Assembly (NCBI GenBank): GCA_947372105.1
Contig: CANBSH010000004.1
Location: 1-64,000, forward strand
Direction: 5' to 3'
Origin: Chitinophagaceae bacterium
Lineage (GTDB): Bacteria > Bacteroidota > Bacteroidia > Chitinophagales > Chitinophagaceae
DNA: 64,000 bases
The notes under the pieces were generated by a model. The model did no database searches. It saw nothing but the letters and a program-made list of their open reading frames with translations, and was not told the origin of the DNA. Numbering within the stretch: the first letter of the stretch is position 1; each line of letters starts with the position of its first letter. The position numbers were made by a program, and so were the translations under genes. Of the stretch, positions 12,194-44,521 are shown piece after piece.

Positions 12194-14596
12194 TTATTTT
12201 AAATAACTAGCAAATTTTGCGTTTTGTTCGGGAGTTAATGCTTTTCCATTCACTGTGATTTTGCCATCTTTAATCATGATTCTCACATTATCGGTAGGAG
12301 CAATACCTTCTTCTTGTAATGCTTGTAATAATGTTTTAGTATTGGCAGAAAGTGTCACTGTTGTTGCAGTATCATTACCACCCAACATTTTGTGGGCTGT
12401 ATCAGTACTTACCACAGATAATTCTACTGTTTGTGTTTTTGTTGTTACAACTGCTTCTGAAGGACGCATTGTCGCTAAAGTAGGAGCAATAACCAAAGAA
12501 ACAATAGACATTAATTTAATCAAAATATTCATAGAAGGACCTGAGGTATCTTTAAATGGATCACCCACAGTATCTCCAGTCACTGAAGCTTTATGTGGTT
12601 CTGATTTTTTATAGAACATCTCACCATTAATTTCAACTCCTTTTTCAAATGACTTTTTAGCGTTATCCCAAGCACCACCTGCATTGTTTTGGAAAATACC
12701 CATTAAAACACCACTCACTGTCGCACCTGCTAAAAATCCTCCTAAAGCTTCTGGACCTAAAGTAAATCCAATTAAGATAGGAGAGATAATAGTGATCGCT
12801 CCAGGCAACATCATTTTTTTCAAAGATGCTTCGGTACTAATAGCTACACACTTATCATATTCTGGTTTACCAGTACCTTCCATAATTCCTGGAATAGTAC
12901 GAAATTGACGACGAACTTCTTCTACCATTGCCATAGCCGCTTCACCCACTGCACGTATAGCTAATGAAGAAAATATATAAGGGATCATTCCACCTACAAA
13001 TAACGCAGCTAAAACATCTGCTTTATAAATATCAATATGTTGATTATGTGGCATAGCAACACCTACGAAAGCTGCAAATAAAGCTAACGAAGTTAAAGCA
13101 GCAGAAGCAATTGCAAAACCTTTACCACTTGCTGCAGTTGTGTTACCCACAGCATCAAGGATATCTGTTTTTTCACGTACTTCAGCTGGTAATTCACTCA
13201 TCTCTGCAATACCTCCAGCGTTATCAGCAATTGGACCAAATGCATCAATAGCTAATTGCATAGCTGTTGTAGCCATCATACCTGCTGCTGCAATTGCAAC
13301 ACCATATAAACCTGCACATGCAAAAGATCCATAAATACCAGCAGCTAAAACTAAAATAGGATAGAAGGTTGATTCCATACCTATCGCTAAACCACCAATA
13401 ATATTTGTCGCATGTCCTGTGCTTGATTGTTTGATGATGCTTAGTACAGGACGCTTACCCATGGCGGTATAAAATTCAGTGATGATACTCATTAGAGTAC
13501 CCACTATTAAACCTACGGCTATAGCACCTATCACACCATTTCTAGTAAATTCTAAACCACGTAATGTCATGGTTTCAGGTAATATGTAAGACACTAAAAA
13601 ATAACAAGCTATTGCAGTTAAAATCATAGAACCATAGTTACCCATGTTCAATGCTTTTTGAACAGTGGCAGTGTTAAGACCCGCTGTTTCACTTATTCTT
13701 ACAAATAAAGTTCCGATGATAGATAATAAAATTCCAATACCTGCAATTAACATAGGTAATAGAATAGGAGATAGACCTCCAAAAGCATCTATTAATCTTG
13801 CACCATTTGGACCAGTTACTTCTTGACCTAATACCATGGTAGCCAATACTGTTGCAACATAAGATCCAAATAAATCGGCTCCCATTCCAGCTACATCACC
13901 CACATTATCTCCTACATTATCTGCAATCGTTGCCGGATTACGAGGATCATCTTCAGGTATACCCGCTTCTACTTTACCAACTAAATCGGCACCTACGTCA
14001 GCAGCTTTAGTATATATACCTCCACCTACACGCGCAAATAATGCAATAGATTCAGCACCTAAAGAGAATCCAGTTAAAATTTCTATAGTACGTAACATCC
14101 CTTCAGCATCTCCATCTGGAGAGAAGAAATGTTTGATAATTAAAAACAATCCGCCTAAACCTAAAACTGCTAAGCCAGAAACCCCTAATCCCATTACCGA
14201 TCCTCCTGTGAAGGACACTTTCAATGCTTTAGCTAAACTCGTTTTAGCAGCTTCAGCAGTACGTACATTGGCTTTAGTGGCTACTTTCATTCCAATATAT
14301 CCTGCAGTAGCACTAAAAACGGCTCCAATCACAAATGCAATTGAAATGCTCCAGTGACTTGTACTATTTTTGGAGGCCATAAATCCTAATAATAACGCTA
14401 CAATCACCACAAAATATCCTAGGATTTTCCATTCTGCTTTTAAGAATGCCATAGCTCCTTCTGCTATGTAATTACTGATCTCTTTCATACGATCTCCACC
14501 AGCAGGTTGCTTAGCTACCCAATTGAATTTCAATAGAGTATACAACAAACCTACAATACCCATCGCCGGTACGGCATAAAACAATAAACTGTTCAT
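12194..14596 (-). CDS. hppA: Membrane-bound ion-pumping pyrophosphatase (K+-dependent type) with C-terminal extension
   Basis: [59 protein letters not shown] (Ala of the K+-dependent class). Confidence 0.95.
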
Positions 14597-43370: not shown

Positions 43371-43458
43371 GGAGAGTTGGCAGAGCGGTCGAATGCGGCA
43401 GTCTTGAAAACTGTTGACTGTAACAGGTCCTGGGGTTCGAATCCCTAACTCTCCGCCA
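43371..43458 (+). tRNA. tRNA-Ser (anticodon UGA at 43405-43407), CCA encoded
   Basis: GGAGAGT...ACTCTCC-G-CCA acceptor; CTTGAAA anticodon loop; long variable arm; GGTTCGAATCC T-arm. Confidence 0.95.
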
Positions 43459-43584
43459 ATAAGTTGAAAACCTGGCATTTATGCCGGGTTTTTTTATGGA
43501 TTTATAGGAACCAAGCTTGCTTGAGAGACTAGAAATTCATAAAAAAACCCTAAACCGCATAGCGGTTGGTTTTCAACTCATTGG
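43456..43584. repeat. Large imperfect inverted repeat abutting the 3' end of tRNA-Ser
   Basis: Left arm 43456-43507 versus reverse complement of 43529-43584: CCAAT[A/G]AGTTGAAAACC and GGGTTTTTTTATG[G/A]ATTT[A/C]TAG shared, each arm with its own hairpin in between. Confidence 0.9.
43470..43495 (+). terminator. Intrinsic terminator of tRNA-Ser
   Basis: CCTGGCAT-TT-ATGCCGGG-TTTTTTT. Confidence 0.85.
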
Positions 43585-43648
43585 TCCCCCACTCAAGGGG
43601 AAGCAGGAACGAAGTGATGGCAATCTCTTTATTTAGAATTTTACTTTG

Positions 43649-44521
43649 CTAATCCTCCAGCACCCCAAATTTTCCATTTTCGTAATCCTCAAATGCTTGA
43701 ACAATTTCCGCTCTTGTATTCATTACAAAAGGGCCATGAGGAGCAATGGGTTCATTGATAGGTTCCCCACTTAAAATAAGCACAACCGATTTTTCGGTGG
43801 CTTGTATTGTAAAATCAGTGCCTTCGTTTTTAAATAATAAGAAATGATCTAAAGGCACATCTTCTGTTTGATTTACTAAAATATTCCCTTCAATCACTAT
43901 TAAAGCAGTATTAAAATGAGCAGGGAAACTCAAATTGGCACTACCCCCTTTTTCTAACTTTACATTAAATAAATTCACAGGAGTAAATGTACTAGCAGCC
44001 CCTTTTTGATCATATTGAGTACCCGCAATTAATTCAATAAATCCATTATCCACTTGAACTTTGGGAATATCTAAATTTGAAATAGCTTGATATTTAGGGG
44101 TAGACATTTTATCCTTTGCAGGTAAATTCACCCATAACTGTACCATTTGAAAATCACCTCCTGTTGCACAAAAGCTTTCGGCATGGTATTCTTTATGTAA
44201 CACCCCAGATGCTGCAGTCATCCATTGTACATCCCCTTCGTGAATTTCACCCCCTCCGCCTGCACTATCATGATGAGCTACACTTCCTTTATAAGCAATA
44301 GTCACTGTTTCAAAACCACGATGCGGATGCACTCCCACTCCTTTAGGTTTTCCTGTAGGAGGAAAATGATATTTAGAAGCATAGTCCAACATAATGAATG
44401 GATCCATTCTTTGCATGGTAAGGCCATAGCCACTTGGAATAAAGTTATGTACTCTAAATCCATCCCCTACAAAATGAGGTTGCCTTGGGGCCAACACCAT
44501 TTCAATTTGTTTGACTGACAT
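43649..44521 (-). CDS. Pirin family protein
   Basis: MDPFIMLDYASKYHFPPTGKPKGVGVHPHRGFETVTIAYKGSVAHHDSAGGGGEIHEGDVQWMTAASGVLHKE. Confidence 0.94.
   Translation of the reverse strand: MSVKQIEMVLAPRQPHFVGDGFRVHNFIPSGYGLTMQRMDPFIMLDYASKYHFPPTGKPKGVGVHPHRGFETVTIAYKGSVAHHDSAGGGGEIHEGDVQWMTAASGVLHKEYHAESFCATGGDFQMVQLWVNLPAKDKMSTPKYQAISNLDIPKVQVDNGFIELIAGTQYDQKGAASTFTPVNLFNVKLEKGGSANLSFPAHFNTALIVIEGNILVNQTEDVPLDHFLLFKNEGTDFTIQATEKSVVLILSGEPINEPIAPHGPFVMNTRAEIVQAFEDYENGKFGVLED

Follow-up and report, generated by a model that had tools for sequence, protein, structure and literature searches.

A conserved folded element behind tRNA genes of Sediminibacterium and other Chitinophagaceae

The inverted repeat that begins at the end of a tRNA-Ser gene in the analyzed window (the whole 64,000-nt stretch) is one copy of a conserved family of folded elements that, in Sediminibacterium as in other Chitinophagaceae, are fixed 3' of tRNA genes. 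The architecture of these elements is well supported. The source genome is that of a lake bacterium of the genus Sediminibacterium (Chitinophagaceae). The elements are ~130-170 bases long and share one order of parts after the tRNA: a terminator hairpin (hairpin A), an inner stem, a triloop hairpin (hairpin B), an outer stem that closes a four-way junction, and a tail hairpin with a GNA loop. At the gathering threshold, Rfam returned only tRNA matches in the window and none for the element itself in 20 further copies, and no description of the element was found in the literature on tRNA-end repeats, tycheposons, and bidirectional terminators, which was partly covered. Within that coverage, the element is undescribed so far.

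Structure of the copy behind tRNA-Ser

tRNA-Ser (anticodon TGA) occupies positions 43371-43458 on the + strand (ARAGORN; Rfam RF00005, 54.6 bits), and ARAGORN places its encoded CCA at 43456-43458, where a first-pass annotation had the left arm of the repeat begin. The repeat itself is real: 36 of 39 arm positions match, 16 of 17 in the outer arms (43456-43472 and 43568-43584) and 20 of 22 in the inner arms (43486-43507 and 43529-43550). In the predicted fold of the + strand, the outer arms pair as stem P1, whose 5' arm overlaps the encoded CCA (inverted repeat I2), and the inner arms pair (repeat I1) within a stem-loop domain at 43485-43551 that carries an apical CAAG-CTTG region within 43508-43528. 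The inner stem of the element spans 62-67 nt, with a CTTG-type loop at its tip, and is nearly constant in length.

Hairpin A (43467-43495, +; repeat I4) is the intrinsic terminator of the tRNA, T1, and reads AAAACC-TGGCATTTATGCC-GGGTTTTTTT. Hairpin B (43553-43567, +) has a triloop, AACCGC-ATA-GCGGTT, as judged from the fold and from a loop survey of 88 copies, and its base mirrors the tRNA terminator. On the opposite strand, hairpin B, the P1 arms, and a T-run fold together as a terminator-like hairpin, T2 (43540-43584, -). Each half of the repeat had been described as terminator-like on its own strand, and the folds agree, at -18.4 kcal/mol (z -4.6) for hairpin A and -12.7 kcal/mol (z -2.0) for the minus strand of 43529-43584. 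The two hairpins that do not match each other, earlier called swapped, are the side arms of the four-way junction in the predicted fold; they need not match because each pairs with itself.

Folding of the + strand of the element gave -57.5 kcal/mol, compared with -23.7 ± 3.1 for shuffled sequences (z -10.8), which is far beyond chance, and the window copy was among only eight merged stretches at ≤ -44 kcal/mol in 15,389 windows of its own genome. The element reaches past 43584, out to a degenerate tail hairpin at ~43598-43626 (+; GGGAAGCAGGAACGAAGTGATGGCAATCT), for which the consensus of other copies is GGAtNNNNGANNGNANNGANNNNaATCC. Next to it, as context only, is a convergent gene that is pirin-like by eye (43649-44521, -; from the ORF list, with orthologues in relatives) and has no obvious terminator of its own in the sequence. 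An insertion between the element and this neighbor in relatives was considered as a possible island and rejected, as it consists of two ordinary genes.

Covariation, strand bias, and distribution

A gap-free alignment of 13 inner domains (A2), with the window copy left out, had double-sided changes in 23 of 24 pairs, and its covariation score of 0.764 was reached by no shuffle, compared with 0.09-0.19 when the structure was slid. The covariance model built from it, R1, found the window copy, on which it was not trained, with 35.6 bits on the + strand (E 0.00095) versus 21.7 bits on the - strand. For both arms of P1, an own-versus-swapped pairing test on 27 flanks gave -13.8 kcal/mol for arms with their own partner versus -9.6 ± 0.5 kcal/mol with the partner from other species (0 of 20,000 permutations). 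In relatives, the flanks of the orthologous tRNA-Ser genes show the same architecture built from arms of quite different sequence; the arms are not unrelated terminators there, the outcome that the first-pass annotation had named as counting against it. Letters change freely while the shape is kept, indicating that something in the cell needs the shape.

Helix pairs comprised 87 G-U and 5 A-C pairs in the fitted alignment and 13 and 1, respectively, in the unfitted A2; the A2 counts are safer because the fitted alignment leans to the model. Mismatches were 57 G.A versus 2 C.T. With G-U so far above A-C, the conserved object is the tRNA-sense single strand, since a double-stranded palindrome would be unbiased. 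The inner domain was also more stable on the + strand than on the - strand in all copies, with RNA and with DNA parameters. Hairpin A loops are mostly GNRA tetraloops, hairpin B has a triloop in 81 of 88 copies (52 GNA and 12 ANA; C-G closing pair in 78), and 69 of 88 copies have a CTNG apical loop. Among 27 ordinary terminators of this genome, only two have triloops. DNA mini-hairpins with GNA or GNNA loops are extraordinarily stable (PMC4686876). The loop types favor DNA, yet the G-U pairs and CTTG/CUUG loops suit RNA too.

Every R1 match in 464 kb of the source genome lies at a tRNA 3' end, and no copies away from tRNAs were found there. Comparison with the flanks of other tRNA genes, as the first-pass annotation had proposed, revealed the same anatomy at about ten tRNA units of this genome, with the element directly 3' of the tRNA (Ser-TGA, Ser-GGA, Ser-GCT/Pro-TGG, Pro-GGG, Lys, Leu-CAA, Cys, Gln, Arg-TCT, and a C17 tRNA). 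Behind several tRNAs, the 3' part of the element recurs in tandem partial copies (L086 [C14, tRNA-Lys], L103, L111, L113, and L354), with a 179-bp period at tRNA-Lys and 68-bp units in L354.

R1 had matches in 34 of 37 congeneric genomes, and 24 genomes from elsewhere in the order gave two weak ones. In a wider draw from the order, its matches were confined to Chitinophagaceae, in Sediminibacterium and five further genera (six in all). Outside the genus, nine of ten matches sit 17-29 nt behind a tRNA, and copies from other genera keep the outer stem, the CTTG-type loop, the GNA-type hairpin B, a GGGTAAG motif, and the tail. Intact tRNAs lie 19-32 nt ahead of 73 of the 91 distinct matches. The remaining 18 comprise five after tRNA-Met or tRNA-Arg 3' parts, seven after other fragments, one tandem unit, three cut by contig ends, and two at probably intron-split tRNA-Leu(UAA) genes. 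Element identity was 70% for the same tRNA across species versus 64% within the same genome. Most copies are thus closest to the copy of the same tRNA in other species, indicating inheritance in place under constraint. Searches of phage, viral, and plasmid sequences returned nothing relevant; plasmid matches covered the tRNA part alone.

Two loci, L400 and L410, were considered as tRNA-Leu 3' halves and rejected: the flank most likely reads as an intact, intron-split tRNA-Leu(UAA) gene, and they are therefore not island borders. In two Sediminibacterium genomes, tRNA-Leu(UAA) is apparently split in the anticodon loop (L441, ~915-1350, -; L442, ~13322-13593, -) by an insert that reads like a group I intron, with no Rfam report at the gathering threshold. 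Separately, the motif GCCGGAGCGAAGCGACGGC occurs 40-111 nt behind tRNA-Ser in L137 (a Proteobacterium MAG), L190, and L251; in L137, a second tRNA 3' end (CTCTCCGCCA) comes after it. These records possibly represent a parallel tRNA-tail structure in other phyla.

tRNA 3' halves, islands, and comparable systems

Most copies are simply inherited with their tRNA, and about five lie behind tRNA 3' fragments (Met and Arg). In the Sediminibacterium genome G008 of the search set, a 212-bp direct repeat (99.5% identical) starts in the anticodon loop of tRNA-Met, takes in the entire element, and borders a 4.2-kb copper-oxidase block. A third copy (79% identical) follows a nosZ-type cluster 13.5 kb farther on. 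Neither the 4.2-kb nor the 13.5-kb block contained an integrase, and the only two PF00589 matches in G008 look like the host XerC and XerD. More tRNA-Met 3' halves with the element are present in G013 and G021, and a leader before the tRNA-Met half is common to G008 and G013, as expected of mobile islands. No such 3'-half repeat was seen at the window's own locus. By eye, the cargo of the integrase-free tRNA-Met islands at L354 and L369 (G008:C21) includes a multicopper oxidase block and a nosZ-type nitrous oxide reductase cluster. At L352 (G014:C53, 1058-2698), a Fic-family gene lies between two element copies, each preceded by a common fragment of ~75-90 bp that also precedes copies in G000 (L372) and G033 (L374).

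Tyrosine recombinases ending in SPLD adjoin tRNA-Met and the element in two larger genomes (L425:1583-2326 and L427:16018-17172). The IntI-like recombinase beside two tRNA-Met copies was considered and rejected. Nearby recombinases score below the integron cut-off (157-171 bits, with a TIGR02249 cut-off of 265), and the tRNA-Met-adjacent integrase does not track the elements, being missing from most element-rich genomes and present in element-free ones.

Integron attC sites (PMC2727003) conserve structure over sequence, fold from one strand, and form the ends of integrase-less mobile gene blocks. The element is alike in these respects. Unlike attC, it lies 3' of intact tRNA genes, includes the tRNA terminator, and folds into a four-way junction. 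No integron integrase could be linked to it; recombinases nearby score below the TIGR02249 cut-off. R' and R'' boxes with a GTT/AAC crossover, as in attC, were not obvious in the element by eye. For integrative elements with tRNA-located att sites, the tRNA 3' half is duplicated from the anticodon loop at island borders (PMC9897764). A 3' half repeated at the far island end is likewise seen at the G008 tRNA-Met and in other Met and Arg copies, but the repeated block also takes in the complete folded element, reaching 212 bp in G008, most copies are island-free, and the two G008 blocks offer no cognate integrase. By this comparison, the element resembles attC in mode and tRNA att sites in place, differing from both in having no integrase assignable to it.

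Other known arrangements share single features. The element has short hairpins with GNA-type loops and tandem partial copies, as REP/BIME sequences do, but there is no Y1 transposase in the source genome, and the element is restricted to tRNA 3' ends with mostly vertical inheritance and is not dispersed intergenically. It has two terminator-like hairpins for opposite strands, as in bidirectional intrinsic terminators, but its T-runs face inward around a separate conserved domain, and only some of its copies lie between convergent genes. The E. coli tyrT gene is followed by 178-bp repeats, each containing the tRNA end. Compared by description alone, the tandem units here are of similar length and also lie directly behind a tRNA, but the tyrT units each include the tRNA end.

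Candidate functions

Our preferred reading, to which we assign a probability of roughly 0.4, is that inward-facing terminators enclose a folded single-strand site that, as an att-like module, would move together with the 3' end of the tRNA. T1 on the tRNA strand and T2 on the other would keep RNA polymerase out of the center from both sides. The center would be a single-strand site in folded form, with DNA more likely than RNA, and would belong to the attachment region by which islands enter or leave tRNA 3' ends; as part of that region, it would be carried and re-laid with the tRNA 3' half. The main weakness is that no recombinase was tied to the element among the nearby recombinases and the G008 PF00589 matches. 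A bolder version, which we consider improbable, is an integron-like system at tRNA genes, in which integrase-less cassettes, each ending in a tRNA 3' half and a folded single-strand site, would be exchanged at tRNA 3' ends by a trans-acting recombinase that reads shape rather than sequence.

The alternatives account for parts of these data. Terminator-like hairpins with T-runs can be read from the sequence of both strands, and a T-run is present in 62 of 71 copies and an A-run in 64 of 71. Because T1 and T2 both point inward, transcription entering from either side would be expected to end short of the conserved center. Facing terminators might serve only as a two-way transcription stop that insulates the tRNA gene from antisense transcription and the neighbors from read-through, the arms being alike because both must terminate well; the folding of both halves of the window copy and the lack of an obvious terminator in the convergent neighbor fit this explanation. 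The downstream gene is, however, co-directional in 40 of 67 copies, 27 of 67 overall lie between convergent genes, as the window copy does, and in one relative (G005) a separate terminator, beyond the element, serves the convergent gene. The element is for these reasons not simply a shared terminator, and the earlier idea of a head-to-head terminator pair fits the anatomy and is incomplete. A two-way stop also leaves the covarying apical domain, strand bias, triloops, and tail hairpins unexplained, and we regard it as distinctly unlikely to be the whole function. With a shared terminator insufficient, a folded single-strand site, probably DNA, is favored. We take more seriously, while still thinking it unlikely, a structured RNA that would be transcribed with the tRNA on terminator read-through, fold as a four-way junction, and act as a trailer or small RNA. 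Selection acts on the tRNA sense strand, which has many G-U pairs and the more stable inner domain, inheritance is mostly together with the tRNA, and G(CUUG)C is a stable RNA loop. Such an RNA would nevertheless open with the tRNA's own terminator, which means that little RNA should reach the center, and the triloops of hairpin B are of the GNA type known for DNA stability, not GNRA or UNCG.

Homologous parts at different tRNAs, tandem partial copies, copies behind non-tRNA fragments, and the REP-like tail hairpin would also suit a selfish short repeat (REP/BIME-like or MITE-like) inserting at tRNA ends. This is quite improbable given that the source genome has no Y1 transposase (no PF01797 match) and no copies away from tRNAs in 464 kb, and that copies are most like those of the same tRNA in other species, not those of the same genome; a REP/RAYT origin was rejected for want of the transposase and of dispersed copies. 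The earlier suggestion, a small repeat or a scar of integration at the end of the tRNA, survives insofar as the element recurs behind many tRNAs and some tRNA 3' halves at island borders, but the repeat is not a scar peculiar to this locus. In principle, quasi-palindromes correct themselves, and a functionless inverted duplication of the tRNA flank, its arms kept alike by template switching, would explain why the arms match while the side hairpins differ. It would not explain why unrelated tRNAs and genera have the same architecture, spacing, and loop types, or why G-U and G.A are strand-biased. Covariation, strand bias, and cross-genus recurrence have largely refuted it, and we give it hardly any credence; a plain duplication, as first proposed, is unsupported because a defined architecture with covarying arms recurs across tRNAs, species, and genera.

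Across a bacterial family, the 3' ends of tRNA genes thus carry a strongly covarying structured element with the tRNA terminator built in. If this is a DNA site, how genomic islands choose tRNA ends would become testable as recognition of a folded strand; if it is an RNA, it would represent a new tRNA-linked RNA family. Under either reading, the element can be searched for by covariance model.
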